From the IMG/VR virus record IMGVR_UViG_3300009184_000157, positions 1 to 28,226 of that record: 28,226 nt of DNA. One strand, given 5' to 3'. This document shows positions 6,461 to 28,097 of this stretch, piece by piece. A program made the translations under genes and the position numbers. Below the pieces are notes generated by a model. It made no database searches, was not told the origin of the DNA, and saw only the letters and a program-made list of their open reading frames with translations. Every line of letters begins with the position of its first letter. Position 1 is the first letter of the stretch. Source of the DNA: a virus.

Positions 6461-6694
6461 ATGGGTGAAAGTGGGGGTGTAAATTCAAATAATACGGCAA
6501 ACACGCCACCAGACCGCCAGAACGCGGTTGGTGGTCTAGGTGACGCTGTACACGCTCTCACACACTCTCTAGGGATACAGGAGTGTGGTGGGTGTGCCAA
6601 ACGCCGTGAATGGCTCAATCGTATGTGGCGGTGGTCACAAGCATCAGACCCCGTACAAGCCTACATAATTGGACAAGAGGAGAACCGCACATGA
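6461..6694 (+). CDS. Small CxxC-motif phage protein, 77 aa
   Basis: The C-terminal half has ECGGCAKRREWLNRM (41-55), a motif of the GCxxCxxRxxxLN type that I recognise from many small tailed-phage proteins of unknown function. The first 25 residues are Asn/Gly/Pro-rich. A single CxxC would need a partner or dimerisation to bind metal. Start support is a GGAG Shine-Dalgarno 4-8 bases before the ATG. The stop overlaps the next start in ATGA (6691-6694), so translation is coupled. Confidence 0.72.
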   Translation: MGESGGVNSNNTANTPPDRQNAVGGLGDAVHALTHSLGIQECGGCAKRREWLNRMWRWSQASDPVQAYIIGQEENRT

Positions 6695-7347
6695 AACTAT
6701 TTCTAGACCCATTTCCCTTTCGTAATCCTGAAAACCGCAGTGATCTAGCAGCAGTAATTTCTGAAATCACAAGCCGTGGTGAGCAGCCCAAGGACAAGGG
6801 CTACGCCAAAGTGGAAAAGACTCCTGCTCCCATTCCGCCAAGCAAGTCTGGCAAGCGGTACGACAAGGTGCAGAAGGTCACGGAATCCCACACTCGCACT
6901 CAATTGGAAAAGATGACCACCACCCGTCTGCGTGAATTAAAAAAGAAGTACGAAGGGTTGGTGGTAAAGGGTGATCGGGACGCTGCGCGTGAACTAGCCG
7001 ACATTCGTGGTCTGCTACGGGCTAAGGGCGCAGGTAGTGTACTGGACGAAGCCACGGAAGGCGACACGCACGCCGGCGGGGCTACATCAGTAAAGCGCAA
7101 GACTCCCCCCGCTACTGCAAAGAAGTTTCGGGGGGTTCCGGCTCCTGTGGTGTACACCCCAACCACCCCACGGGTCATGGAACCCCTGAAGGTAAGCGAA
7201 GCCTGTGGCGAATGCACAAGCGATGCCATAAAGTCCCTCAAAGCAGCGAACACCGCAGACCTACAGGACGCGCCCGGTGCTGCGGGGAAAGCCGCACACA
7301 AGCGGCTCCACAAGACAATTGGTAAAGTGCTGAAGGGCACCAAATAA
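6691..7347 (+). CDS. Hypothetical basic 218-aa protein
   Basis: Starting at the ATG overlapped by the previous stop (GAGGAG Shine-Dalgarno upstream), the product begins MKLFLDPFPFRNPENRSDL. It is Lys/Arg-rich, with a helical segment around residues 70-115 (TTTRLRELKKKYEGLVVKGD) followed by a Thr/Pro-rich stretch and a basic C-terminal helix ending KVLKGTK. One CGEC pair lies near residue 170. It is the last gene before a strong terminator. I do not recognise a family; nucleic-acid binding is suggested only by charge. A longer frame from 6610 overlaps the upstream gene and lacks its own Shine-Dalgarno. Confidence 0.68.
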   Translation: MKLFLDPFPFRNPENRSDLAAVISEITSRGEQPKDKGYAKVEKTPAPIPPSKSGKRYDKVQKVTESHTRTQLEKMTTTRLRELKKKYEGLVVKGDRDAARELADIRGLLRAKGAGSVLDEATEGDTHAGGATSVKRKTPPATAKKFRGVPAPVVYTPTTPRVMEPLKVSEACGECTSDAIKSLKAANTADLQDAPGAAGKAAHKRLHKTIGKVLKGTK

Positions 7348-7427: not shown

Positions 7428-8222
7428 ATGGCAAACAAGGGATTACAGTTTGAGTGGTGCATCTACCACCTTATCGCAGTGAAGTCACGCATGGCACAGA
7501 CAGCGGAAACCAAGCACGCAGCAAGCGAGTACTCGGCTTCCCCCGCAGATGTCAAGAAGGACGCAGCCAGTGCAGTTGCAGCAGTGGAGAAAGCCTACGG
7601 AGCCGTAAGCGGCGTGGAAAAAACATCAGGTGGTGGCAAGGAACCCAAGACCGATCTGTATATCTCTGCGGGTCGGAGTAAACTCAAGTGTTCCCTGAAG
7701 TACGGCGGCAGCATTCAGTTGTCTTCGGCGGGTGTAAACACCACCGTGGAGTTTATTTCAGGAATTCTGAAAGCGTACACGAAAAGCACGGGGCGTGATG
7801 TTGCCAAGTGCAAGCGAATTCTGAAAAGTCTGGCTGAGTTTGAACACGAATACGGCGACTTGGGCAAGATTGCACAGAACAAGGCTACGCAGAAACTCAT
7901 TGAAGCCAAGAAGTTTAATCTGGAATTGCAGTCCATCTTGGGATCGCGCACTGAACCTGATGTGGCTTCGGAAAACGAGCGCATCAAGTTAGCCATTGTT
8001 GAAGAAGCCATCACAGGCAAGTACACCTTTGGCGCAACCTCCAAACTGTCGGCAGACCATATCCTCACGGAAACCGAAATCAAAAAAGTTGACGCCAAAC
8101 TCATCCGCGAGGTAGCACACAAGACATCGGTGCGCCTAGCACTCAAGGGACGGGGCAAAAAGGTTGTGGGCGGACGGGAAGTGCGCTTGAATGAAATAGT
8201 TGTGCGTTTTGACACTGCTTGA
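7428..8222 (+). CDS. PD-(D/E)XK-like nuclease-fold protein (tentative)
   Basis: I start this 264-aa protein at ATG 7428 (MANKGLQFEW) because CGGAGGA lies at the right distance and the CTAAATA box lies upstream; an in-frame start at 7365 would lie before the terminator. The pattern GLQFE (5-9), TDLYI (D76) and CSLKYGGSIQLSS (K91) resembles the E...D...(D/E)XK layout of restriction-endonuclease-like folds, with Ser in place of the acidic residue before LK. The rest is mainly alpha-helical with a basic C-terminal beta region. Nuclease activity is uncertain because of that Ser. It has no capsid-targeting-like N-terminus, unlike the genes after it. Confidence 0.65.
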   Translation: MANKGLQFEWCIYHLIAVKSRMAQTAETKHAASEYSASPADVKKDAASAVAAVEKAYGAVSGVEKTSGGGKEPKTDLYISAGRSKLKCSLKYGGSIQLSSAGVNTTVEFISGILKAYTKSTGRDVAKCKRILKSLAEFEHEYGDLGKIAQNKATQKLIEAKKFNLELQSILGSRTEPDVASENERIKLAIVEEAITGKYTFGATSKLSADHILTETEIKKVDAKLIREVAHKTSVRLALKGRGKKVVGGREVRLNEIVVRFDTA

Positions 8223-8239: not shown

Positions 8240-8968
8240 ATGCCCAAACCATTCCGCCAGTACATCACCGAACGCCTAGCCATTGAGGACAACCCCAATG
8301 CGTACACGCCACCCGCTACCAGTGGAGCGCGTAGTCGTGCGGACATTGCGTACGAGCGGCGGCAAGCACGGCTTTACGGTGGAGTCATGGCACGGGTAGC
8401 CGCAAAGGCTCTTGCAAAGTCGCAAGCACAGCACCGCACACAGTCGGCGCGTGAGCCGTTTCCGTGGAGCGATGGAGGCTACAACATGAAGCCAGGCTGG
8501 TGGCATCCCACCAAGCAGTGGTTCCTGTTCACCCGCGACTACCATGTCACGCAGATTGTAAAGACTCCACGGGCATTCGGCATCTCCACCGCAGAACTGA
8601 ATGGGGGACTGCTGAAGGAAGCAGAGAATTTGGTGTCGCGCCGCGTGAATTGGTATGACAGCGAAGGCACTCCACAGGCACACACAGCCGAAAGTGTGCG
8701 CGACAGCATTCTGAAGACGGACATTGATCTGGCTTATGAAGTGCAGCGGCTTGCGTACATGAAGGGTTGGCTGAAGGTGTACTCAGGAAGCGCACGAAAT
8801 TCACCGTCACTGGAAGGCATCAACGGCGACTCTATTCGTGCAGCACTGCGCGAGATCAGCGAGAGCGGTGGCAACTTCAACACAGTCGTGGTGGAGCGCG
8901 TTGGACTGAATCGCGGACTATCGGATTTCAAGCGGTACAATCCAAACGAGTGGAGAACCGTGTCGTGA
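8240..8968 (+). CDS. Hypothetical 242-aa protein with capsid-targeting-like N-terminus
   Basis: The start MPKPFRQYITE-RLAIED contains the F-x-x-Y-I-x-E element seen on most downstream genes, and a T4 gp21-type protease would cut after Glu11. The body has a Trp/His-rich segment (PGWWHPTKQWFLFTRDYH, about residues 85-103) and several helices; I recognise no enzyme family. A TTG start at 8219 would overlap the upstream gene and lacks a Shine-Dalgarno. The last four bases overlap the next gene's GTG start (GTGA), so it begins a chain of coupled genes reaching 11517. Packaging into the capsid is inferred from the N-terminus only. Confidence 0.75.
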   Translation: MPKPFRQYITERLAIEDNPNAYTPPATSGARSRADIAYERRQARLYGGVMARVAAKALAKSQAQHRTQSAREPFPWSDGGYNMKPGWWHPTKQWFLFTRDYHVTQIVKTPRAFGISTAELNGGLLKEAENLVSRRVNWYDSEGTPQAHTAESVRDSILKTDIDLAYEVQRLAYMKGWLKVYSGSARNSPSLEGINGDSIRAALREISESGGNFNTVVVERVGLNRGLSDFKRYNPNEWRTVS

Positions 8969-9534
8969 AGTCATTCCGCGACCATCTCCACGAAGCCGTG
9001 ATTGCATCAACAAAAGCGGTCAAGGGCGCACGCAAGCCACGCGGCTACAAGAAAACCGCTGCAAAGACGCTTGAGCGTTTGCGTGCTGAAACCACATATG
9101 ACGGCAAGACCTACGCGGCTTACGATTCCACAGGGCATGACAATCCCAACGCTCGTTGGCTTGAGAAGTGGGGACTGCCGCCCACGAACGATGTCAAGAC
9201 TCTGCGCCAGTACTTGCCGCTGCTGTGGTGGTGGGATCACGGCAAGATCATGGTGTGGGAAATTCCGCCACACCAAACCGCGGATGTGATACACAACGAT
9301 ATTCCTGAATACAATGTTGCGGCTCAACAATCAACCAACAAAAACGGTATGCCTGACTATCAGGGTCGCGTTGACCGTTTCCGCAAGACCGTTTCGCTTA
9401 TCTCTGCGGCAACAGGACAAAATCTGCTGCGTGATCGTGCGCTTCAACGCGGCAAGAATCGCGTGGCAAACAACCTTGCGCGTATGTTCCCCGGTTACAC
9501 AGTGGTAGACATGGATGTGGAAGGCGCGATATGA
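8965..9534 (+). CDS. Hypothetical 189-aa protein with capsid-targeting-like N-terminus
   Basis: I choose the GTG at 8965, whose TGA overlap with the previous stop is typical of this chain. It gives (V/M)KSFRDHLHE-AVIAS, matching the F-x-x-H-L-x-E cut-site pattern with Ala after it, the best T4-like case in the window. Longer upstream frames run inside the previous gene. The body is basic (KGARKPRGYKKTAAKTLERL), then has a Trp-rich core (LLWWWDHGKIMVWEIPP) and a helical C-terminus. Function is unknown. It ends in an ATGA overlap with 9531. Confidence 0.75.
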   Translation: MKSFRDHLHEAVIASTKAVKGARKPRGYKKTAAKTLERLRAETTYDGKTYAAYDSTGHDNPNARWLEKWGLPPTNDVKTLRQYLPLLWWWDHGKIMVWEIPPHQTADVIHNDIPEYNVAAQQSTNKNGMPDYQGRVDRFRKTVSLISAATGQNLLRDRALQRGKNRVANNLARMFPGYTVVDMDVEGAI

Positions 9535-10055
9535 AGAACTTCAGTTCTTATTTCAACGAAGGCGTGGAACACGGCAACACACCCAAGCCCAAGCCCGAGT
9601 ACTTTCAGAAGCCGTTCAACATCAGCGGCAAGATTGTGCAGTTGAATCCGGTGTTTGATATTCCCGTAAAGACCAAGAAGTACAGGAACACGCGCTTCCG
9701 CATTGGAGAACGGGAGGGGAAGAGTCCGTATGTGGATACTCCCGGTCAGAAAGCGTATGATGCCAAGATGAGCGTGTGGCGATGGCGCGTTCGCATTCAG
9801 ACCGATGAAGGGTGGATGCTCATGGGCTACATTGGCACATCGGATCGCAAGGAAGGGTTGCCGCCCATTCGCTTGGGTGATACGGTTGAAGTCACGGCAT
9901 TGAAGTTGTCGCAGATGACAGGCGGAAATCAAATGACCTACGCTGATTCGTGGGTAAAGGGCGGTTACACCACATACTCGGACAAGGCTGTGGACTACCG
10001 CTCCGAAAATTTCTCCCGTCAACTGCACGGAAAGGTGAAGCGTAAAGCCGTATGA
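9531..10055 (+). CDS. Hypothetical 174-aa protein with capsid-targeting-like N-terminus
   Basis: The N-terminus MKNFSSYFNE-GVEHGN again has Phe, Tyr and Glu in the shared spacing, with Gly after the putative cut (T4 gp21 accepts Ala or Gly). After the peptide the protein is rich in beta-type sequence with many aromatic and basic residues (KTKKYRNTRFRIGE, MSVWRWRVRIQTDEG). RLGDTVEVTALKL hints at a small OB- or SH3-like barrel, and the C-terminus is basic. Both ends overlap the neighbours by ATGA. Nucleic-acid binding is possible but unproven. Confidence 0.74.
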   Translation: MKNFSSYFNEGVEHGNTPKPKPEYFQKPFNISGKIVQLNPVFDIPVKTKKYRNTRFRIGEREGKSPYVDTPGQKAYDAKMSVWRWRVRIQTDEGWMLMGYIGTSDRKEGLPPIRLGDTVEVTALKLSQMTGGNQMTYADSWVKGGYTTYSDKAVDYRSENFSRQLHGKVKRKAV

Positions 10056-10798
10056 TAGACTTCCGCTCCTACCTCACCGAACTGTTTGACACAAAGTTTT
10101 CCCTGCACAGCATGGGATACAACCAATTCATTTTTCATGTGCAGGAAAAAGACGGTCGCTTGACCCCTGTTCCTGATCGTGGAAGCAAACTCACGCAGTG
10201 GGTGGAAACGGAATTGGGAGTCACGCCGGAGAATCACTTTGACAGTCTGCATAAGTTCTACACAAAAAAAGCAAGAGTGTATGTGTACTCGGTGGAGTTT
10301 ACTCCACTTGTGCAGATCCGAAACGAATACCCTGAATTTTTGCTGTTCTACGGCTTGGAGCCTGACGGCATCTACGAGTTGTCGTTTTCTCGCCACGCAA
10401 CATCGCTTGAGCGTATGCCGCCCCGTCCGTATCCAGTTGGCTCAAAACCCAAGGACATCAGCAAGTTCTATTGGAAATTTGATAGCGGCGGCACAGATGA
10501 AGACCTGAATTGGTTGAGTACAGGCGGCGCGGCTTCCGTGCTTGGCGCGGTGGTGGACGCTTCCCGTGAATTCGTCAAGAACAACGATCCCGTTCGCGGA
10601 ATCATCATTGGAACCAAGACCAGTGCCAATCCTGCGCGTGGTCGCATCTACAAAGCACTTGCGCGTAAAGCAGCCGCCGCAGTGGGCGGCACGGTGCATG
10701 AGTTGGACATTGCGCGTGGGGGCATGGCAGCACCCACCATTGTTTGGTTGGACAAACAGCACAAGTTTGGTGAATTGTATCAGGGAGGTAAAGCGTGA
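10052..10798 (+). CDS. 248-aa protein with capsid-targeting-like N-terminus, domain shared with next gene
   Basis: The start MIDFRSYLTE-LFDTKF is nearly identical to that of the next gene (MNTFRSYLTE-VFDRPF). The C-terminal region from about residue 155 (ASVLGAVVDASREFV, then GRIYKALARKAAAAVGG) resembles the corresponding part of the next protein (ILATVIEAVRMFL, then DAVYSAMMRRFGKQYG), so the two are paralogous over much of their length. Unlike its neighbour it has no HNH domain. The start overlaps the previous stop in ATGA and the end overlaps the next GTG. The shared domain is of unknown function. Confidence 0.77.
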   Translation: MIDFRSYLTELFDTKFSLHSMGYNQFIFHVQEKDGRLTPVPDRGSKLTQWVETELGVTPENHFDSLHKFYTKKARVYVYSVEFTPLVQIRNEYPEFLLFYGLEPDGIYELSFSRHATSLERMPPRPYPVGSKPKDISKFYWKFDSGGTDEDLNWLSTGGAASVLGAVVDASREFVKNNDPVRGIIIGTKTSANPARGRIYKALARKAAAAVGGTVHELDIARGGMAAPTIVWLDKQHKFGELYQGGKA

Positions 10799-11517
10799 AC
10801 ACATTCCGTTCCTACCTTACCGAAGTATTTGACCGTCCGTTTCCTGTGCGTGAACTGAAACGCCTCGGTTACGGCGCGACTACAATGGAAGTCACTTACC
10901 ATGCACTGGTTGATGATGGGCAGGACTTGATGATTGACATCACGAACATCGGCAGATGGTGGGAAATCAATTTCACTCTTGACGGTTCACACGAACTCAC
11001 CCATGCAGGCAAGCCGTATCGCATACTTGCAACGGTGATTGAAGCGGTGAGGATGTTCTTGAAGTGGCACACCGAAACATTTGAAGAACTGCCGCAGCAG
11101 TTTGACATGGTGTCCAAGTCAAGCGAAGGCAAGCGCGATGCGGTCTACAGTGCCATGATGCGGCGATTCGGCAAGCAATACGGTTACAAGATCGTGGATC
11201 GTTTCGTGAGCGGTCAAGGACCGCTTGAGAACAGGCGCACCGTGACCAGCGCACGATTGGCAGAAGCCCGTGACTACAAGGCTGAGTACGCCAATATGTA
11301 CGGCGGCGACAATCCCACGCCCAAGCAGCGCAAAGCCATGAAGAAGAAAACCGCTCGGAAGCGTGTGCTGCGGCGCATGGGTCGGGAAGGCACCAGCACA
11401 GACGGCAAAGAGATTGACCACAAGAACGGCAACGCACTAGACAGCCGCCCGTCCAATCTGCGCTTGGTGTCTCGCCACACCAACCGCTCCAAGGACAACA
11501 ACAAGTGGCGGAAATGA
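10795..11517 (+). CDS. HNH endonuclease with capsid-targeting-like N-terminus
   Basis: The 240-aa product has three parts. The leader MNTFRSYLTE-VFDRPF (GTG start, GGGAGGTAA Shine-Dalgarno) is near-identical to the previous gene's. A middle domain is paralogous to that gene. A C-terminal HNH module of the HNH_3 type (about 205-240) reads KEIDHKNGNALDSR, then SNLRLVSRHTN, the usual His and Asn ligands of a beta-beta-alpha-metal nuclease. It is preceded by a basic segment rich in Lys/Arg (about 175-195) that probably binds DNA. HNH enzymes nick or cut DNA. Carriage inside the virion is inferred from the leader. It is the last gene of the coupled chain. Confidence 0.85.
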   Translation: MNTFRSYLTEVFDRPFPVRELKRLGYGATTMEVTYHALVDDGQDLMIDITNIGRWWEINFTLDGSHELTHAGKPYRILATVIEAVRMFLKWHTETFEELPQQFDMVSKSSEGKRDAVYSAMMRRFGKQYGYKIVDRFVSGQGPLENRRTVTSARLAEARDYKAEYANMYGGDNPTPKQRKAMKKKTARKRVLRRMGREGTSTDGKEIDHKNGNALDSRPSNLRLVSRHTNRSKDNNKWRK

Positions 11518-11543
11518 AAAATAGAAGTCTCGCGGGAACACGC

Positions 11544-11564
11544 CAGCATTACTAAATAATGCTG
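11544..11564 (+). promoter_or_regulatory. CTAAATA late-promoter-like box inside a perfect inverted repeat
   Basis: CAGCATTA (11544-11551), loop CTAAA (11552-11556), TAATGCTG (11557-11564). The late-type box CTAAATA (11552-11558) overlaps the loop and the second arm. It stands 37 bases before the ATG at 11596, with AAAGGAGAA before that start. The hairpin has no T-run, so it is a weak terminator candidate at best; extrusion or a protein-binding palindrome is possible. Confidence 0.6.
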
Positions 11565-11595
11565 ACAAGCCAAAATCACTCAAAGGAGAACTCTT

Positions 11596-12321
11596 ATGGC
11601 ATTCACAGCAGGATCAGTAGAACTCGCAAAAGCGAACAAACTCGGCAACGCCCTTGCCCACCTTTTCACCGCACACGGTCTTACAGGTGCAGCCGGACGC
11701 ACTGGTGCGCTCCTGATTGAAAAGGCTGCTCGTAAACTGGGCTTCGGCATCACTGGTATCACCACTGGTGCGGGCTTCCCGCCTTTCGGTAGCATTCTCC
11801 CGTCTTTGCTTTCGGGAACCGAGGCTGCATTACAGAATCCTCGCGGCGAGACAATGATAAACAACATTGTTCTTGGAGCCATTGAAGGACAGACCGTTGG
11901 CATCTTCCTTAAGAAGTTTGTCCGTAGTGGTGCAGACTATCAGGCAACCATGTTCCAAGGTCTTACCCTTTCAGCGGCAACCACAGTTGCAGGAACCACT
12001 TTCCAAATCAACGGTGGATTCAGCGCAAACACCAACGATCTTATTGTAATTGGTTCTGCTTCATACAAAGCCATTAGTGGAAACACGGGATCGGTTGCTG
12101 GTGGAAAATGTGAAGTCACAGTAAGTCCTGCAATCGGTATTGTGTATCCTGTTGGAACTACCTTAAATATACAGACCGTGGGAATGACTCGCGGAACTGT
12201 TGGAATTGCTGGCGCAACATTTGAGAACTTCCAAGGCAGAGGAGTCGTCAACGGCGGATTCACTGCCGCTGTTTACTACAACACTCCATCGGGCGGAAGC
12301 GGAACTTGGGTAGTTTCGTAA
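11596..12321 (+). CDS. Gly/Ala/Thr-rich 241-aa protein, probably virion-associated
   Basis: The product starts MAFTAGSVELAKANKLGNAL (AAGGAG Shine-Dalgarno). The first 90 residues are Gly/Ala-rich helix-like, and the rest is beta-type, with repeating Gly/Thr/Val strands (TTVAGTTFQINGGFSANTND, VTVSPAIGIVYPVGTTLNIQ). Low charge and beta-richness are typical of structural or decoration proteins, and a late-type promoter box lies upstream. There is no signal peptide and no catalytic motif. The family is unrecognised, so the structural role is inferred from composition and context only. Confidence 0.7.
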   Translation: MAFTAGSVELAKANKLGNALAHLFTAHGLTGAAGRTGALLIEKAARKLGFGITGITTGAGFPPFGSILPSLLSGTEAALQNPRGETMINNIVLGAIEGQTVGIFLKKFVRSGADYQATMFQGLTLSAATTVAGTTFQINGGFSANTNDLIVIGSASYKAISGNTGSVAGGKCEVTVSPAIGIVYPVGTTLNIQTVGMTRGTVGIAGATFENFQGRGVVNGGFTAAVYYNTPSGGSGTWVVS

Positions 12322-12327
12322 TACCAA

Positions 12328-12810
12328 ATGGCTGAAGAATTTGATTTTGGCTTCACGGCGGTAACAGGGGAGGAGTTGGGTCTGGTGGTGACACCACCAA
12401 CTCCTCCCCTTCCGTCTGTTTCACCGGATGCGATCACAGCCATTGCTGCACAGATCGCAGAACTGAAAAACGCAGTGGCGGCTATCAAACCTGTGTCTGC
12501 AACACAGATCACTCGCGTGGAAGAAAAGATTGATCGTGTACTCAACATGGAACTGCACGAACTAAATGCAGCGGTGCAGTCGCAAGGCGAAAGCCTGTCA
12601 AGCGTATTGGACGAAGTGGAAGAACGGGCTAATGCCACACGGGAAGAGTGCAAGGAAAAACTGCAAGCCCTTGAGCGTATGATCCTACCGCTACTAACTA
12701 GTCTTATGAAGAATCCCGAAAAGCCCTACATCAAATGGGAAGGTCGTGCAGAAAAGATTGCTGCACAGATAGACAAAATCACCACTATCACGCGCAGTTA
12801 CGGAGTCTAA
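12328..12810 (+). CDS. Conserved phage coiled-coil protein, 160 aa
   Basis: The first 35 residues are acidic then Pro/Thr-rich (VVTPPTPPLPS). Residues 35-120 form long amphipathic helices (IAAQIAELKNAVAAIKP, VEEKIDRVLNMELHELN). The C-terminus LLTSLMKNPEKPYIKWEGRAEKI resembles the PLLxNLxKNPExxYIxWPxR ending I associate with a small protein widespread in T4-like marine phages, of unknown function. The start is an ATG six bases after the previous stop with no clear Shine-Dalgarno. A large hairpin lies in its Pro-rich coding segment. Confidence 0.72.
   Translation: MAEEFDFGFTAVTGEELGLVVTPPTPPLPSVSPDAITAIAAQIAELKNAVAAIKPVSATQITRVEEKIDRVLNMELHELNAAVQSQGESLSSVLDEVEERANATREECKEKLQALERMILPLLTSLMKNPEKPYIKWEGRAEKIAAQIDKITTITRSYGV
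12367..12409 (+). repeat. Large nested inverted repeat inside the coding sequence
   Basis: Outer arms GGGGAGGAGT (12367-12376) and ACTCCTCCCC (12400-12409) are perfectly complementary, as are inner arms TGGTGGTG (12383-12390) and CACCACCA (12392-12399). Six bases (12377-12382) form a one-sided bulge. The RNA would be a very stable hairpin about 40 bases into the gene, encoding EELGLVVTPPTPPL. Confidence 0.85.
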
Positions 12811-12811
12811 A

Positions 12812-14821
12812 ATGGACATTGAACCCTACAAGAGCCTACGCACAATCATTCTTGAAGTGCAAGCAGTCGCAGCAAAACCCGCTGCCAAGACTCCTCACAA
12901 GGTAGGAGAACCGTGGCAGACTGCTAGTGGCAATTGGGGCGCAAAGAATGTCAAAGGGCAAACCGAATACTTTGACTCGGAAGACAACGCGAAGGCGTGG
13001 CTTGCTGGCAAGCCTGCTCCCGCAGGACGAGTAGAAAAGCCAGGCGACACCTCGCGCAAGGTTGAATTGGACGCGGACGGTTACGAAACGAAACCAGACA
13101 CGAAGGGAGCAGCACAGCCGAATGCAAAAACCACAGCAGTCGCAGGAGCAAAACCCACAGCCCAACCCACAACAGGAGGAGCAGGAACTCCCCAAGCGCA
13201 AGCGGTTCCCGCTAATACGCAGCGTACAGCACAACCGCAAGGTAGCCAAAAAGGTGCAGAACAAGCGCAGGTAGCCGCTGACACCGAACAGCACCCCGAA
13301 GTGGCGCGTGAGAATCCTGCAACGGAATTTGATTCGGAATTCAAACCTGATCCCAAGGCAACAGAAGCAGCCAAGACCAAGCGCGATGTTCGCAAGGCTA
13401 ACATTGTGGCAGCAGCCATCAAAGCCAAAAAGTTTGCAGGACCGAAAAGCAACGAAGACTCGGTGTTTGGTGATCCGAAGAAAGAACGTATGTTCATTGA
13501 TGAACTGAACCACGCTGCTCTGTCGGCTATGCGTGGAGAAGCAGCATACGACTTTGAGTTGTGTTCGCAGGCATTCGCTGATGTGGGCTTCTGCTTTGAT
13601 CCCAAGACCAAGAGCGGCGTGTCCAAGGGCATTCCTCGTGACCGTATGCCGCAGTTCTCGTCACAGGTTGATCCCAACCAAACCGACTCTCCTGCATTCA
13701 AGGCTCTCATGGCAGGCAAGGGATACACTTCTCCAGATCAGGTTACTCCCGAAGACCTGAAGGCTGAAGTCAACATGGAAAAGGAATTCCGCAAGGCTCT
13801 TGAGGATGACGGCTACGAAATCACGGAGCAGGATGCGCCTGTTACTTCACTGAAGCCCATTCAGGGACAGTTGAAGGGCGAGAAGATTGCAGGAATGTAC
13901 GGAACACTGCTTGCAGCACAGGAAGACGAAACATACGCCAAACAAGCCGCGCGTCTGCTTGAACCCATCTATGTTTCTGATGGCTATGTGATTGACGGTC
14001 ACCACCGTTGGGCAGCGCAGTGCGCGGTTGACATTGCCAACGGCGGCGGTGCAAACACCACCATGAAGACCCGCACGATTACCAAGGGCGGCAAGCCTGT
14101 GCCACCCGAAGACATCATCGCGTTCTCCAACAATTTCCAAAAGAGCGTGGGTCTACTGAGTCAGACTCGCGGCGGTGAAACAATTCCAGAGAAGAAACCA
14201 AAGACACAGAAGGAATGGAACATGAGCAAATTCGGCACAAAGCGTATACAGAATCTTGTTGAGTCGCTGAACGAAGCCGCCAAAGCCAAGTTCAAGAAGC
14301 CCCGAATTGCCAGTGACGAGCCAGACACATTCGGATACGGTGCGGTGCTTCAGCGCGGCAACAACGACCGCAAAGTGGACAAGAAGGGCAATCCTGTTGC
14401 ATCGCTTGCACAGCAGGTAAACCGCGATGCCCGTGCTAGTAACGAAGTTCAGAAGAACGAGAAGACCGCGCAGGATCTACTCGCTACCATGAACAAGAAG
14501 CCTGAAGGCACCACTTTTGAAATCTACGGCTCCAAGAACGGAAAAGAAACATCCGTGAAGGTAAAGAAGGTTCGCTACATGGGCAATGTGGTGTACATGG
14601 TGGGAACCAACGAAGTAGAGTTGCGCGTTGCAGGCACAGGGCTGCAAGTGATCGGCAAGAAGAGCCACCGTATGCTGCTTGATCGTGGCGCGGATCTGAT
14701 TTGGGAAAGCGCAGACTTTCTTGATGTGGGACGCGAAACCATCACCGAGATTCGCAAACTCACCAAGGATGAACTGAAAACCATCCGTCCCGGAATGACC
14801 AAGCCTGCTCCAAAGAAGTAA
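12812..14821 (+). CDS. Multidomain protein with ParB-like DGHHRW domain, 669 aa
   Basis: The leader MDIEPYKSLRTIILE-VQAVAA is a looser version of the capsid-targeting pattern. Residues 20-75 are a small domain, about 75-200 an Ala/Pro/Gln/Lys low-complexity linker. Around 345-405 lies a ParB/sulfiredoxin-like domain with YVIDGHHRWAA (DGHHRW at 395-400), a nucleotide- or DNA-binding motif in ParB-like nucleases. From residue 471 a further Met with AAGGAA upstream begins MSKFGTKRIQNLVESLNE-AAKAK, itself like a targeting and cleavage peptide, so the C-terminal 199 residues may be released or made separately. ParB-like nuclease or CTPase activity is not established. GGAG precedes the start. Confidence 0.77.
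   Translation: MDIEPYKSLRTIILEVQAVAAKPAAKTPHKVGEPWQTASGNWGAKNVKGQTEYFDSEDNAKAWLAGKPAPAGRVEKPGDTSRKVELDADGYETKPDTKGAAQPNAKTTAVAGAKPTAQPTTGGAGTPQAQAVPANTQRTAQPQGSQKGAEQAQVAADTEQHPEVARENPATEFDSEFKPDPKATEAAKTKRDVRKANIVAAAIKAKKFAGPKSNEDSVFGDPKKERMFIDELNHAALSAMRGEAAYDFELCSQAFADVGFCFDPKTKSGVSKGIPRDRMPQFSSQVDPNQTDSPAFKALMAGKGYTSPDQVTPEDLKAEVNMEKEFRKALEDDGYEITEQDAPVTSLKPIQGQLKGEKIAGMYGTLLAAQEDETYAKQAARLLEPIYVSDGYVIDGHHRWAAQCAVDIANGGGANTTMKTRTITKGGKPVPPEDIIAFSNNFQKSVGLLSQTRGGETIPEKKPKTQKEWNMSKFGTKRIQNLVESLNEAAKAKFKKPRIASDEPDTFGYGAVLQRGNNDRKVDKKGNPVASLAQQVNRDARASNEVQKNEKTAQDLLATMNKKPEGTTFEIYGSKNGKETSVKVKKVRYMGNVVYMVGTNEVELRVAGTGLQVIGKKSHRMLLDRGADLIWESADFLDVGRETITEIRKLTKDELKTIRPGMTKPAPKK
14222..14821 (+). 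other. Possible internal start / processed C-terminal product
   Basis: In frame with the 669-aa protein, ATG 14222 has AAGGAA about nine bases upstream. It would give a 199-aa product starting MSKFGTKRIQNLVESLNE-AAKAKF, with an SLNE-AA site matching the gp21 rule. This would give the C-terminal domain its own leader. It could equally be an internal protease site of the long protein. Confidence 0.4.
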
Positions 14822-14823
14822 AC

Positions 14824-15363
14824 ATGAAATCATTCAAGGATATCCGCGACCACGCATTCTGCTCCCTTCAAAGAATTGTCTTTGAGGAGTTTGACGCTGA
14901 ACTCACGGAAGAGCAGATTGTTTTAGATATGCCCTCGCTTTCCTACGAAGATGTGGTAGACTACCTTGACGAAAACGAGGTGGAGTGGGAAGAAAAGGAT
15001 GGTGTCATCTACATTCTTGACGCGGTGGAAGAAGCCGAGATCAGCATTGAAGACGATGACTCCGAAGAGATTGAAGAATCAGTTGACATTGAAGGCGAGA
15101 TGCTGAACGAGGTCGCTGCCAAACGCAAGATCGTGGTTCGCAAGGGACGCAAGAAGATACTGTTCAAGTGCGCTCCTGGCTTCAAGAAAAAAGGACCGCG
15201 TACTTGTGTGAAGCGGGCTACGGGTCAGTTGCGTAAAATGAAACTCACTGCCAAACGAGCAGCACGAAAGGCTCGCAGCAAGAGATCACAAGCCAAGAGA
15301 AAGCGTAAACTTTCCATGCGTAAGCGTTTGACATTCGGATTGCGTCCCCGAAAGAAGAGATAA
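14824..15363 (+). CDS. Acidic/basic proprotein; basic C-terminal half likely a DNA-binding head protein
   Basis: The 179-aa product (start MKSFKDIRDHAF) is split sharply by charge. Residues 1-96 contain about 35 Asp/Glu. Residues 97-179 contain about 38 Lys/Arg and no acidic residue (KIVVRKGRKKILFKCAPG, then an Arg/Lys-rich helix). The boundary reads GEMLNE-VAAK, a fit to the T4 prohead protease rule (L-x-E). Cutting there would remove an acidic pro-part and release a strongly basic peptide able to bind packaged DNA. The C-terminal KCAPGFKKKGPRTCV pattern recurs in T4-like phage proteins of unknown role. No good Shine-Dalgarno; it follows the previous stop by two bases. Confidence 0.8.
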   Translation: MKSFKDIRDHAFCSLQRIVFEEFDAELTEEQIVLDMPSLSYEDVVDYLDENEVEWEEKDGVIYILDAVEEAEISIEDDDSEEIEESVDIEGEMLNEVAAKRKIVVRKGRKKILFKCAPGFKKKGPRTCVKRATGQLRKMKLTAKRAARKARSKRSQAKRKRKLSMRKRLTFGLRPRKKR

Positions 15364-15366
15364 ACC

Positions 15367-16206
15367 ATGATACAGCATGAGCAGACCGACAATGGTGGGT
15401 CGGTTACAGTGAAGTCCTCTCAAGGACTGGCTTCGGTTTCGTATTCGTACTCCAACTCCGAGTCCACCCTTTCCCTGTGGTGCAGTGCATCGGATGCGTC
15501 CACTCCAAAACTAGTGAATGCAGTTGTGGAAAGCCTCACGGAGCGATTCTCTCCCACGGTGCTGTGTGTGTCTGCCAAGCACACTGAAACCCGCTACACA
15601 CCCAAAGTGCATTCCCTGTTCAAGTGTTGGAGCAATCCGCACCAATCGGTGTACGCCGAAGCATTCAATTCGCGGGATATGTTCAATCGCATATGCAGTC
15701 TGTCATATGCCATGCACAACACCGACATCGTGAAAGTCACTGGCGAAGACATGAAGTTCTACGAGTACCGTGCTGTAATGAACGATCTCCGCAAGAAGAC
15801 CACGCCGTTTGAGTTCTTGTCCATCAAGGAAGAGTGCGACTACAGCATCAAGAGTACATCTGCTGCGTGTGTGGACGCACTGCTTCGCTCTGCTACCGCT
15901 GCACTGGACTGCTTGACTCAACGACAACAGCAGCCGTTCCGTGAAGCACTCGCATCACTTGCTTTGCGTCAGTCCCGTGAGCGTGGATTTGACACAAAGT
16001 ACTCGTATATTCAAGAAGCCACCACCGCGATTCTGTTGCCAGCAGTGGTGCGCCTTGGCAGCGCACACCCGTTCACGCAAAACATATTTTCGGAATTCTC
16101 TGCTGCGGCATCGGAATATACAGGTGCGTGTACAGAGTTCATTTCTGAATACGCCGAAATATTGGACAGCAATTCCTCAAATCCCGATTACCCCCCTACA
16201 TACTAA
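15367..16206 (+). CDS. Hypothetical 279-aa protein
   Basis: The product begins MIQHEQTDNGGSVTVKSSQG. Its first third is Ser/Thr/Val-rich and beta-like, and the rest is mainly alpha-helical (LVNAVVESLTERF, ALLRSATAALDCLTQ) with six or more scattered Cys. I see no catalytic motif, signal peptide or transmembrane segment. It starts four bases after the previous stop with at most a weak AAGAGA Shine-Dalgarno and is followed by a short gene with AGGAG. It lacks the F-x-x-Y-L-x-E leader of many neighbours. Family unknown. Confidence 0.65.
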   Translation: MIQHEQTDNGGSVTVKSSQGLASVSYSYSNSESTLSLWCSASDASTPKLVNAVVESLTERFSPTVLCVSAKHTETRYTPKVHSLFKCWSNPHQSVYAEAFNSRDMFNRICSLSYAMHNTDIVKVTGEDMKFYEYRAVMNDLRKKTTPFEFLSIKEECDYSIKSTSAACVDALLRSATAALDCLTQRQQQPFREALASLALRQSRERGFDTKYSYIQEATTAILLPAVVRLGSAHPFTQNIFSEFSAAASEYTGACTEFISEYAEILDSNSSNPDYPPTY

Positions 16207-16218
16207 CAGGAGACTACC

Positions 16219-16398
16219 ATGACAGACATGAGACAATACCTTGCGTGGGTCAAGCAAAACCAACAGAACAATCCTGAATGGCGTGATGCCAACAAGTGGC
16301 AGAACCGCAATCAGACTCCCGTGAACACTCCAAAGCCAGCACAGCCGAACGGCTTGCCTGAAGGCACGGAAATTGTGGACGAAACACCCAAAGAGTAA
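16219..16398 (+). CDS. Small hypothetical protein, 59 aa
   Basis: This short gene reads MTDMRQYLAWVKQNQQNNPE and ends VDETPKE. The AGGAG Shine-Dalgarno, 12-base gap from the previous stop and two-base gap to the next start make it a credible gene in the series. The body is Asn/Gln/Pro-rich and hydrophilic. MRQYLAW loosely echoes the leader motif of the neighbours but lacks a Glu at the cut position. Function unknown. Confidence 0.65.
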   Translation: MTDMRQYLAWVKQNQQNNPEWRDANKWQNRNQTPVNTPKPAQPNGLPEGTEIVDETPKE

Positions 16399-16400
16399 AC

Positions 16401-17069
16401 ATGAAGACTTTTCAGCATGAATTTGTGACGCTAAACGAAAACATAGAAAGCGTAGAAAGCGGCAGCGGCAGGAGATACAGCACTCCTGACGGTATTTTTC
16501 CGTCTGTTACCACCGTGACAGGATGGAAGAAGCGTGCTTTTTTTGCCAAGTGGCGGCGTGAGAACCCTGAAGAATCCAAGCGAGTACTATCCCGTGGAAC
16601 CAAACTACATTCGCTCATTGAAACCTATCTCCTCAACGCTCTTACGCCAACTGCGATCACGGAATCGGAGGGAACTACAGAGAGGGACTTATTTGTGTCG
16701 ATGCAGCAAGAGATTGATCGTATCGGGACGATCTACGCCATTGAAGTGCCACTGTGGTCGAAGAAGGTGGGTCTTGCGGGGCGGACGGATTGTATCGGTG
16801 AGTTTGACGGCGTTCCATCGGTCATTGATTTCAAATCTTCCAATTATCCAAAATCCGAGGACGCGATTCAAGACTACTTCATGCAAGCCACCGCGTATGC
16901 GCTCATGTGGCAGGATCGTACTGGGCAGGAATTGCGAAATATTGCCATTCTGATTGGTGTGGAGGACGGTGGCTGTCAGGTGTTCACCGCCGATCCACGG
17001 GACTATGTGCCTGATCTAGTGGAAGCCATACAGACCTATCGTGCCGAGCAGCCTGTCCGCGTTTCCTAA
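16401..17069 (+). CDS. PD-(D/E)XK exonuclease, MGME1/Cas4-like
   Basis: The 222-aa product has the usual ordering of a RecB-type nuclease. There is a Tyr-x-x-Pro-Asp-Gly entry segment with FPSVTTVTGW (33-42), the GTKLHSLIE helix (66-74), AGRTD (D130), IDFKSS (D143 and K145 of the (D/E)XK core), and QATAY (162-166). This fits ssDNA exonucleases of the MGME1/Cas4/RecB group found in many tailed phages. The N-terminus MKTFQHEFVTLNE-NIES resembles a capsid-targeting peptide (T4 internal proteins start with similar MKTYQEF), though with looser spacing. No strong Shine-Dalgarno. The TAA stop forms part of the next promoter box. Confidence 0.87.
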   Translation: MKTFQHEFVTLNENIESVESGSGRRYSTPDGIFPSVTTVTGWKKRAFFAKWRRENPEESKRVLSRGTKLHSLIETYLLNALTPTAITESEGTTERDLFVSMQQEIDRIGTIYAIEVPLWSKKVGLAGRTDCIGEFDGVPSVIDFKSSNYPKSEDAIQDYFMQATAYALMWQDRTGQELRNIAILIGVEDGGCQVFTADPRDYVPDLVEAIQTYRAEQPVRVS

Positions 17070-17072
17070 ATA
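17066..17072 (+). promoter_or_regulatory. CTAAATA late-promoter-like box
   Basis: TTTCCTAAATACGG spans the TAA stop of the exonuclease gene (17067-17069) and stands 19 bases before the TTG start at 17091. The promoter core and stop codon share bases, as also seen at 28094. Confidence 0.62.
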
Positions 17073-17090
17073 CGGAAGCGGAGGACACTT

Positions 17091-18299
17091 TTGATACGAT
17101 TCACGCAACACCTAACAGAAGCCGTAAAAGCCTCCAGTGGCAAGAATGTCCACTTGGAGCATCTAGAGGACGAAATCCTCAACAACGGCTACGCAGGCTT
17201 TAAAGCCGCTGTGTCGGCTATTCGTGGTGTAGCCGATTCGCTGTCTGCCACCGCGCCGAGCAGTCACGAAATCACCGTGAAGTGGGACGGCGCACCCGCC
17301 ATCGTTTGTGGCATTGACCCGTCTAGCGGCAAGTTCTTTGTGGGCACGAAGAGCGTGTTCAATGTGACTCCCAAACTGAACTTCACCAACGCAGACATTG
17401 ACGCGAACCATCCATCGGTGGGTCTAAACGAAAAACTGAAACTCGCACTACAGTACTTGCCCAAACTAGGCATCAAGGGCATCTTGCAGGGCGATCTCAT
17501 GTTTGACAGCGGCTCTCTTGTCCGCACAAAGATTGACGGCAAGCCCATGCTGACCTTTACGCCCAACACCATTACCTACGCGGTGGAGCCTGGCAGTCAC
17601 TTGGGCAAGCGCATCTTGGGTGCAAAGATGGGCATCGTGTTCCACACAGCATACGAAGGCACTAGCATTGCCACCGCAACCGCCAAGTTCAATCCTGATT
17701 TGAGTGGACTGCGGAACACGAAGGATGTGTGGTTTGACAACGCCACTCTGCGAATCGCGGACGGCAGCGGCTTGTTCTCACCCGATGACCGCAAAGACCT
17801 TGAGTCGGCTATTGCAAAGGTTGAAGAAGCGGCTGCTGCACTCAAGACTACCATGAACGCCATCGCAAAGAATCAGGGCGTGAAAGACGCAATCAAAATG
17901 TATGTGAACTCGCTTGTGTCGCAGGGCAGTCTTAGTTCACACGCTGATGTAAACGATATGCTTGCGTTTCTTGGAGCCAAAGCCCAAGCCAAGCGCAAGA
18001 CCAAGATGACCAAGCCCACGCCAAGCATGGAGTGGATCAAGCGCAATCGCAATCAGATTGCTCGGGTATTCGCACTACATAATCAGTTGGCACAACTCAA
18101 ACTGGTTGTGGTGAAGAAACTCGCGTCCATGTCAGGCAAGATCGGAACATTCATCCGTGACGGCAAGGGCTACCGAGTCACAGCACCCGAAGGATTTGTA
18201 GCCATTGACCGCATGAGCAATGCGGCAGTGAAACTGGTAGATCGCCTTGATTTTTCGCGCAGCAACTTCACAGTGCCGAAAAATTGGGGCAAAGACTAA
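17091..18299 (+). CDS. Ligase-superfamily nucleotidyltransferase-like protein with capsid-targeting-like N-terminus
   Basis: I use the TTG at 17091, six bases after GGAGG, giving (L/M)IRFTQHLTE-AVKASS, a leader with Ala after the predicted cut. Residues 62-70 read TVKWDGAPA, the K-x-D-G motif I of DNA/RNA ligases and capping enzymes (Lys64 would carry the nucleotide). Downstream candidates for other motifs are ILQGDLMF (131-138), TFTPNTITYAV (155-165) and KMGIVFHTAYEG (179-190). The C-terminal 150 residues are helical and basic. It lies next to a nucleotidyltransferase gene. Whether it ligates nucleic acid or only uses the fold is not known; related phage proteins are usually left unnamed. 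Confidence 0.75.
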   Translation: MIRFTQHLTEAVKASSGKNVHLEHLEDEILNNGYAGFKAAVSAIRGVADSLSATAPSSHEITVKWDGAPAIVCGIDPSSGKFFVGTKSVFNVTPKLNFTNADIDANHPSVGLNEKLKLALQYLPKLGIKGILQGDLMFDSGSLVRTKIDGKPMLTFTPNTITYAVEPGSHLGKRILGAKMGIVFHTAYEGTSIATATAKFNPDLSGLRNTKDVWFDNATLRIADGSGLFSPDDRKDLESAIAKVEEAAAALKTTMNAIAKNQGVKDAIKMYVNSLVSQGSLSSHADVNDMLAFLGAKAQAKRKTKMTKPTPSMEWIKRNRNQIARVFALHNQLAQLKLVVVKKLASMSGKIGTFIRDGKGYRVTAPEGFVAIDRMSNAAVKLVDRLDFSRSNFTVPKNWGKD

Positions 18300-18341
18300 C
18301 GAGCAGTTGGTTCAGGAAGTGCAATATCGGAGGTGATCCCC

Positions 18342-19385
18342 GTGGCTAAACAGCAAGAGAAATCTAAGTCTGCGCGACCAGGCAAAACCATCGTGGTAGC
18401 CTTCGGTCGCTTTCAGCCACCAACTTCAGGACACCAACTGCTCGTTGACACTTTGGTAGAGGCTGCGAAGAAACACGGCGCAGAACACGCCATGTTCAGC
18501 AGTCGTACCAACGACCCTAAAAAGAATCCTCTAACCCCCAAGCAGAAGTTTCACTATCTGAAAAAGTTCTTTCCTGAAGCCAACTTTATTGATAATGCAA
18601 ACATCAAGAATCCCGTGGATATGTTGTATTGGCTGGCTAAAAAGGGATACGACCATGTGCTGATTGTGGGTGGACAAGACCGTGCAGGCGAGTACGATGC
18701 CTTCAAAAAGTTTATGAGTCCCAAAAGCAAGGAACCGCTGAAACTGAAATCCATCAATGTGATCAGCGCAGGGCAGCGCGATCCCGATGCGGGTGGTGTG
18801 CAAGGCATGAGCGCGTCCAAACTCCGTGCAGCGGTGGCTGCGGATGACTTTGCCACATTCAAGACGGGTATGCCCCGCCGTGCCAACGCAAGCGACATCA
18901 AGTCGCTGTTCTCCGATCTGAAGAAGGGCATGAGAACCGTTCGCAAAGAAGACATCAACTACACCGACATCTACTCGTCAGCGGCTTTGCGCCTCATGGA
19001 GAGCGACAAGTACAAGCGGCGACCCGATACGCCGGGGCAGACAGGCGGCTTCTCCAAGCACAATAAAATATACCCTATCCCACCGTGCAAGATTGACGAA
19101 GACTTGGCGCGGTGGTTCAAAGAGAAATGGGTGAACATTGGCGGCAAAAAGGACAAGTCGGGGCACTATCCGCCCTGTGGTCGCCACGACACTTCCACGG
19201 GCAAGTACCCCAAGTGCCGTCCTGCTCGTAAAGTAAGCAGCGAAACGCCTAAAACGGTGGGTGAAATGACCCCAAAGGAGCGGAAACGGGCGGTAATTCA
19301 AAAAAGACGAGCCGAGCCTGAAACGCAAAGAAGCGGAAAAGGCAACGCTCCGCACATGACGAGCCACCTGAAAAAATCTAAATAA
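18342..19385 (+). CDS. GRFQPPTSGH nucleotidyltransferase fused to a Cys-rich WxxEKW domain
   Basis: The GTG at 18342 is chosen because a near-perfect GGAGGTGATC Shine-Dalgarno stands five bases upstream; an in-frame GTG at 18333 lies inside that site. Residues 16-160 form a HIGH-type adenylyl/cytidylyltransferase: GRFQPPTSGH (22-31), SSRTNDPKKNPL, VGGQDR, and GMSASKLRAAV as the ISSTxxR-like motif. The C-terminal part (about 235-300) has ARWFKEKWVNIGG, then PPCGRHDTSTGKYPKCRPA, a small Cys-containing domain I recognise from phages and giant viruses (DUF5872-type; name given from memory). A role in NAD or RNA-end chemistry beside the ligase-like gene is inference. Confidence 0.82.
   Translation: MAKQQEKSKSARPGKTIVVAFGRFQPPTSGHQLLVDTLVEAAKKHGAEHAMFSSRTNDPKKNPLTPKQKFHYLKKFFPEANFIDNANIKNPVDMLYWLAKKGYDHVLIVGGQDRAGEYDAFKKFMSPKSKEPLKLKSINVISAGQRDPDAGGVQGMSASKLRAAVAADDFATFKTGMPRRANASDIKSLFSDLKKGMRTVRKEDINYTDIYSSAALRLMESDKYKRRPDTPGQTGGFSKHNKIYPIPPCKIDEDLARWFKEKWVNIGGKKDKSGHYPPCGRHDTSTGKYPKCRPARKVSSETPKTVGEMTPKERKRAVIQKRRAEPETQRSGKGNAPHMTSHLKKSK
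19378..19384 (+). promoter_or_regulatory. CTAAATA late-promoter-like box
   Basis: AAATCTAAATAAAGG overlaps the final codons of the nucleotidyltransferase gene and precedes the ATG at 19406 by 21 bases, with CAGGAGA between as Shine-Dalgarno. Confidence 0.6.
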
Positions 19386-27911: not shown

Positions 27912-28097
27912 ATGCCCAAAATCAAAAAATTCTCAAAGTTCGTTTCCGAAGATTTTCCGCCGCCCATCGCTACTCCCACCAACAACACAGGCAACGGGAA
28001 TATTGCAGGACTTTCGCCTGATCTTCCGCCCGTGAAGACTCCTTCGCAGCGCAAAAGAAAATCAAATATTGGTCGCCGTAAACCTCCTGTAGCCTAA
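27912..28097 (+). CDS. Small basic protein with targeting-like N-terminus, 61 aa
   Basis: The product is MPKIKKFSKFVSE-DFPPPI followed by a Pro/Asn/Gly segment (NNTGNGNIAGLSPDLPP) and a basic tail (QRKRKSNIGRRKPP). F-S-K-F-V-S-E keeps the spacing of the leader in the 8240-17091 genes, so it could be cut after Glu13, leaving a small basic peptide. AAAGGAA lies upstream of the ATG. Similar Asn/Gly/Pro small proteins occur in T4-like phages; function unknown. Confidence 0.7.
   Translation: MPKIKKFSKFVSEDFPPPIATPTNNTGNGNIAGLSPDLPPVKTPSQRKRKSNIGRRKPPVA

Follow-up and report, generated by a model that had tools for sequence, protein, structure and literature searches.

Otherwise unrelated proteins of a T4-superfamily virus share an N-terminal peptide resembling the T4 capsid-targeting sequence

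The 28,226-base IMG/VR virus fragment IMGVR_UViG_3300009184_000157, analysed over its whole length and called the window below, carries a series of plus-strand genes whose products begin with a common short peptide, F-x-x-[YH]-[LIF]-x-E, hereafter the tag. A sequence-only reading had placed this N-terminus on six genes starting at 8240, 8965, 9531, 10052, 10795 and 17091, likened it to the capsid-targeting peptide of T4 internal proteins and proposed packaging of its bearers in the phage head; all six tags are found at these starts. Gene matches assign the window to the T4 superfamily, on a branch other than T4's own whose nearest members are Melnitz and the Kyanoviridae. Its set of CobT-like and DUF6267 proteins occurs elsewhere in cyanophages, Pelagibacter phage HTVC008M, Methylophilales phage Melnitz and Stenotrophomonas phage DLP6, and a megablast search of the window against named phages returned no near relative. 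The six tagged genes are:

Gene A, 8240-8968, plus strand: 242 residues; tag MPKPFRQYITE (8240-8272).
Gene B, 8965-9534, plus strand: 189 residues; tag MKSFRDHLHE (8965-8994); GTG start overlapping the previous stop.
Gene C, 9531-10055, plus strand: 174 residues; tag MKNFSSYFNE (9531-9560).
Gene D, 10052-10798, plus strand: 248 residues; tag MIDFRSYLTE (10052-10081); distant paralogue of gene E.
Gene E, 10795-11517, plus strand: 240 residues; tag MNTFRSYLTE (10795-10824).
Gene F, 17091-18299, plus strand: 402-residue DUF6267 protein; tag MIRFTQHLTE (17091-17120).

These gene starts are credible, since those of genes B to E overlap the preceding stop codon by 4 nucleotides (GTGA or ATGA) and the TTG start of gene F is preceded by GGAGG, a strong ribosome site. 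The tag spans F4 to E10, shifted by one residue in gene A (F5 to E11), a close relative of which starts MKPFRQYITE and thus with F4; the 56 distinct tag strings from all loci include 42 with F at exactly residue 4. The tags are also kept in homologues: I9 and E11 of gene A are invariant in 11 of them, and nearly all of the 14 homologues of gene B retain F..HL[RH]E. Behind the tags the proteins mostly differ, as had been claimed: when the window proteins are compared, the bodies encoded by genes A, B, C and the D/E pair display no mutual similarity even by profile. The bodies of D and E are weakly related (E 9e-6) and both proteins begin with a common FRSYLTE[LV]FD, so their near-identical tags are not independent.

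The cargoes are identified to varying degrees. Gene E ends in an HNH_3 nuclease domain (residues 203-230; PF13392, E 2.5e-8), and gene F matches PF19782 (E 9e-105) with an invariant K-x-D-G motif that, together with weak fold matches, is suggestive of a ligase-like nucleotidyltransferase; this identity stays suggestive because DNA ligase, the best match in the Foldseek search, scores only E 0.06, and a profile search against the sequences of solved structures gave nothing meaningful. For gene A, the fold search found no solved structure and matched only an uncharacterised protein of Agrobacterium phage Atu_ph07. Residues 1-18 of the gene A model are predicted disordered and of low confidence; confidence is likewise low over the first 20 residues of the DUF6267 model, and both are as expected of a detachable tail.

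To quantify the tag's frequency, we counted F..[FYHLWTIVM][ILVFM].E at residues 2-12 and found it in 6 of the 27 called genes, where the internal rate predicts 0.12 (P 4e-9), with a pattern picked after the data had been seen. Because of this circularity, the test was repeated with a pattern fixed from T4 mutagenesis (aromatic at position 4, hydrophobic at 7, I, L, V, M or F at 8, E at 10), which gave 4 of 27 against 0.014 expected (P 2e-9) in a gene-caller run that missed the TTG start at 17091. Under either pattern the motif thus lies far above chance, in agreement with the sequence-only reading. The fixed pattern was also counted in five IMG/VR relatives, G012 (149,886 bp) and G013 (147,410 bp), near-complete by length, plus G001, G014 and G015, and recurred in 5/149, 5/165, 3/123, 2/80 and 4/96 genes with fewer than 0.13 expected in each (P 5e-8, 2e-7, 8e-5, 7e-4 and 5e-7); being homologous to the window, these relatives test conservation rather than serve as fully independent replicates. 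Shuffling residues within the N-termini yielded a mean of 0.13 tags and at most 2 in 2000 shuffles, against 5 observed, which rules out an effect of composition.

The positions under constraint coincide with those that matter in T4. There, the first ten residues of IPIII suffice for packaging, mutagenesis assigns positions 4 and 7 to targeting and 8 and 10 to processing, the prohead protease gp21 cuts after L/I-x-E, and Asp at position 10 blocks processing while allowing packaging (PMC9026906); the leader and its use for finding ip genes are already known in T-even phages (PMC12373910). In an alignment of 17 DUF6267 sequences from window relatives, Melnitz, DLP6 and HTVC008M, conservation among residues 2-16 is confined to exactly these four positions, with F or Y at position 4 (17/17), H, Y, F or L at 7, L or I at 8 (17/17) and E at 10 (17/17); positions 2, 3, 5, 6 and 9 are free to vary, and the segment at residues 11-17 differs in length. 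The likeness to T4 IPI-IPIII (MKTYQEFIAE in IPII and IPIII, cut by gp21) therefore extends from an N-terminal location, a length of about ten residues within the 10-19 of a capsid-targeting peptide and presence on otherwise unrelated proteins to an aromatic residue at 4, an aromatic or hydrophobic one at 7, I or L at 8 and E at 10.

A gp21-like protease had been named as a further expectation, and here the outcome is split: a PF03420 search finds no match in the 28-kb window or in two long contigs with distant gene C homologues, and detects a gp21 homologue in all five relatives (E 1e-40 to 1e-42). The head machinery is hence inferred from the relatives, as the window holds neither protease nor capsid genes. 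In all five, gp21 adjoins the portal gene, with scaffold and major capsid genes beside it in four as we read them; the order gp20, gp21, gp22, gp23, with precursor cleavage sites, is seen in G013, G014, G015 and G001, and the window stops short of this region. The relatives' gp23 precursors carry candidate L-x-E sites such as KEQMLVE/A and QQMLTE/GP (the slash marking the putative cut), and their gp21 proteins have LITE and a second [IVW]LTE near their own starts.

Published virion mass spectrometry shows that tagged proteins are present in the particles of relatives. In cyanophage S-CREM2, for which 52 virion proteins are listed (PMC10665884), four genes genome-wide carry the strict F4 tag (ORF6, 14, 136 and 154; ORF, open reading frame) and 4/4 are virion-detected against 52/219 overall (P=0.003), in a register chosen after seeing the window tags because T4 has an F4-type register; with the strict pattern at any allowed position the figure is 4/6 (P=0.03). 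These tags belong to a SAM hydrolase (MKDFDSFLEE), an APH-like kinase (MKRFDAFLTE), ORF136 (MQTFSMFFSE) and a cytidylyltransferase (MKNFSSFLTE), and the virion-detected ORF13 is tag-like (MKDLHSFLTE). Cytidylyltransferases or NMNATs have likewise been detected in virions of S-SM1 (PMC3037559), S-SZBM1 (PMC9146016) and S-SCSM1 (PMC9602691), where they begin MKKFSAFLNE, MRFRQFIIE and MKSFLQFLKE, so that tagged cytidylyltransferases are virion-detected in four cyanophages including S-CREM2; the untagged DUF6267 protein of S-SZBM1 is not among the detected proteins in the printed list. The S-CREM2 authors caution that virion enzymes are not fully distinguishable from co-purified material (PMC10665884). 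We know of no report linking such enzymes to the tag, as in the open-access literature, to which our search extended (paywalled work and preprints lying outside it), only a T4 review mentions both 'capsid targeting' and 'cyanophage'. As a separate observation, the virion-detected S-CREM2 ORF12 (L126:7704-10313) is a nuclease annotated as Cas9, an annotation that is probably unreliable, and has a tag-like RFASFMAEAA from residue 18.

The tag also stays constant while the cargo behind it changes. In G012 and G013, 6/6 strict tags fall within one homologous cluster (approximately 107-120 kb and 99-112 kb). Tagged cargoes include a NUDIX hydrolase (L064, with a counterpart in G012), a 394-residue protein and an LWGLPRG-domain protein in the G013 cluster, and a zeta-toxin/AAA_33-like kinase (MRSFRRSLAEAF) at L035:3355-4074; in G012 and G001 the HNH protein has a HAD/PNK-like domain inserted. 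Judging from these sequences, individual enzymes have moreover gained or lost the tag: DUF6267 bears one in the window, Melnitz and DLP6 and none in S-SZBM1 and S-SM1, whereas the cytidylyltransferase is tagged in the latter two and its window homologue (18333-19385) is untagged. The neighbourhoods of the cyanophage virion enzymes otherwise resemble the window in often holding both DUF6267 and cytidylyltransferase genes. A further gain or loss appears just upstream of gene A, where the product of 7428-8222 (phrog_22045) is untagged and its longer homologue in L067/G013 (L067:3111-4295) is tagged FVSYLSE.

By far the best explanation of these observations is that the shared N-terminus is very probably a T4-type capsid-targeting sequence, as originally suggested, a reading supported by its register, by the conservation of the four functional positions, by gp21 and L-x-E sites in relatives, by cargo swapping under a constant tag and by the virion data from four cyanophages. 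For the window phage itself, we infer the following course. The tagged proteins would be made before the head closes, their N-terminal ten or so residues, through the aromatic residue at 4 and the hydrophobic or aromatic one at 7, would attach to the scaffold core as the prohead grows, and the bound proteins would be trapped inside. A gp21-like prohead protease would then cut after position 10, the Glu of [LIVF]-x-E, and free the cargo, which may leave the head together with the DNA when the next cell is infected. The cluster would act as a cassette in which individually tagged cargoes can be exchanged, several of them presumptive nucleic-acid or nucleotide enzymes.

Several points weigh against this reading. 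The first motif test in the window was post hoc, and the relatives that provide the other enrichments have common ancestry with it; the window fragment includes no protease or capsid genes, and we found no published virion proteomics for its clade. Cleavage after the Glu is deduced from a conserved site. In S-CREM2, a loosened pattern (other first residues, any offset to 14) does not predict virion membership (P 0.2), so only the strict register is predictive. Untagged proteins are present in virions too and the IPI protein of T4 itself is a poor match, so the tag is not the sole route into the head, nor is it a strict pattern. Finally, the T4 late-promoter consensus TATAAATA is not enriched in the window, with 7 near-matches against 5.1 expected, a count too close to be informative.

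Among the alternatives, the one that fares best, at long odds, is a core-binding tag that is never cut, the proteins being packaged with intact N-termini. T4 indeed separates targeting from processing and still packages the Asp10 protein (PMC9026906); a tag that only binds would, however, hardly keep E10 and L/I8 in all 17 DUF6267 proteins, and the relatives possess both the protease and its L-x-E substrates. Slightly less probable still, and largely refuted, is a duplication remnant, in which the N-terminus would be left from a single ancestral gene whose copies diverged past recognition. The extended common start and weak body similarity of genes D and E fit such descent, yet the other bodies are dissimilar even by profile, the cargoes (NUDIX, HNH, DUF6267 and zeta-toxin-like kinases) are different folds, and leftover homology would not leave conservation at four separated positions alone. 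We give even less credence to a role unrelated to the head, such as an amphipathic helix that binds membranes or a partner, or a bias linked to translation: a low-confidence prediction places a short helix at DUF6267 residues 3-10, and phage N-termini are biased in composition, but composition-matched shuffles fail to reproduce the motif and the relatives' virions contain tagged proteins. Chance or pattern-picking by the reader, conceivable in that the pattern was picked from the window itself, is refuted by the T4-fixed pattern (P 2e-9 in the window and 7e-4 or lower in all five relatives).

Capsid targeting would also bear on how some cargoes are joined. The gene C body forms a separate, tagged protein in the window, L073 and L076, and is fused behind four different upstream domains in relatives (homologues in L074, L066, L078, L067, L077, L011 and L084). 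The junctions always keep hydrophobic-x-Glu followed by Gly (ELRE/G, ELSE/G, AVRE/G, TVKE/G and GMSE/G), exactly where a tag would be cut, and no longer have the F and Y that belong to the targeting half; an [ILVMF]-x-E triplet occupies only 1.3% of positions in these bodies. Similarly, in the gene E family the linker that precedes the HNH or HAD domain retains LAE or LIE, and this L-x-E is present in most of 9 aligned homologues, with and without the HAD/PNK-like insert. In the window the corresponding feature is:

11257-11265, plus strand: possible internal prohead-protease site L-A-E/A in gene E, at the linker from the first domain to the HNH domain.

Retention of the protease half with loss of the targeting half parallels the separate targeting and processing positions of T4 and suggests polyproteins, in which several effectors would enter the head behind one tag and be separated at junction sites opened by the capsid protease. 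We hold this only tentatively, somewhat short of an even chance, because the junctions could be traces of gene fusions that happened to end inside a tag.

Looser forms of the tag occur, or had been proposed, on further window genes, all on the plus strand:

6691-7347, plus strand: 218-residue protein; variant tag LAAVISE at residues 19-25.
12812-14821, plus strand: 669-residue protein; variant tag MDIEPYKSLRTIILE, then a variable linker rich in Ala, Pro and Lys.
16401-17069, plus strand: PD-(D/E)XK exonuclease, PF12705; tag unsupported.
20735-20785, plus strand: probable tag MQHENKRFKDFRNTLTE, from residue 44 onward of the window ORF 20606-22597.
27912-28097, plus strand: 61-residue protein; probable tag FSKFVSE at residues 7-13.

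The related tags claimed at 27912 and 20735 (FRNTLTE) are largely conserved in relatives. Homologues of the former read FSAFVSE, FSAFIGE and FSSFIGE, with the Glu lost in one; the latter is internal to its ORF in the window, and in many relatives the protein begins at that point, with MSEHKRFKAFRSEL[TN]E. The 12812 protein (YKSLRTIILE), named as a looser member, keeps its motif as L..xI.E, with Y-K-S-L...I[LF]E in all 12 distinct homologues shown; the 6691 protein, which had gone unmentioned, retains in its homologues a hydrophobic-rich stretch ending in [IV].E even where this is shifted by three residues. On these grounds, both probably carry variant tags. The 16401 exonuclease (MKTFQHEFVTLNE), also proposed as a loose member, was removed from the list because the Glu is not conserved, being Asp in several homologues. 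The proposal of three packaged nucleic-acid enzymes is thereby reduced to a solid HNH nuclease (10795) and a suggestive ligase-like protein (17091), the exonuclease being probably untagged.

Elsewhere in the window, 14824-15363 encodes an Arg/Lys-rich protein that has a weak match to the phage head scaffolding family phrog_3503 (E 2e-5); close to the N-terminus it carries a conserved stretch similar to LQR[ILM][VIMF]FEE, and it may be a prohead core protein. The minus strand carries genes for tRNA-Leu(CAA) at 96-168 and tRNA-Arg(TCT) at 573-647. In Melnitz, outside the cluster, an HhaI-type DNA methylase (L050:4010-5227) starts with a tag-like MKYFRYTLDE and is either packaged or similar by chance.

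Relative to T4 IPI-IPIII, the system described here differs in its recognisable enzyme cargoes, in having more tagged genes per cluster and in its apparently fused cargoes. T4 Alt offers a precedent, being an enzyme that enters the head by means of an N-terminal propeptide and is later injected, although no ADP-ribosyltransferase domain was found among the cargoes scanned here. The giant phages SPN3US and phiKZ likewise co-package with their DNA many ejection proteins trimmed after Glu by a gp21-related protease; going by literature descriptions only, they stand apart as far more divergent phages with a divergent protease and recognition motif. The tag would explain the presence of an NMNAT-like cytidylyltransferase, a SAM hydrolase and kinases in purified cyanophage virions, and a short sequence rule would predict head-carried proteins among the unknowns of environmental T4-like phages. 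Since T4 internal proteins of this kind neutralise restriction enzymes of the host (PMC12373910), counter-defence and takeover are candidate roles for the tagged genes.

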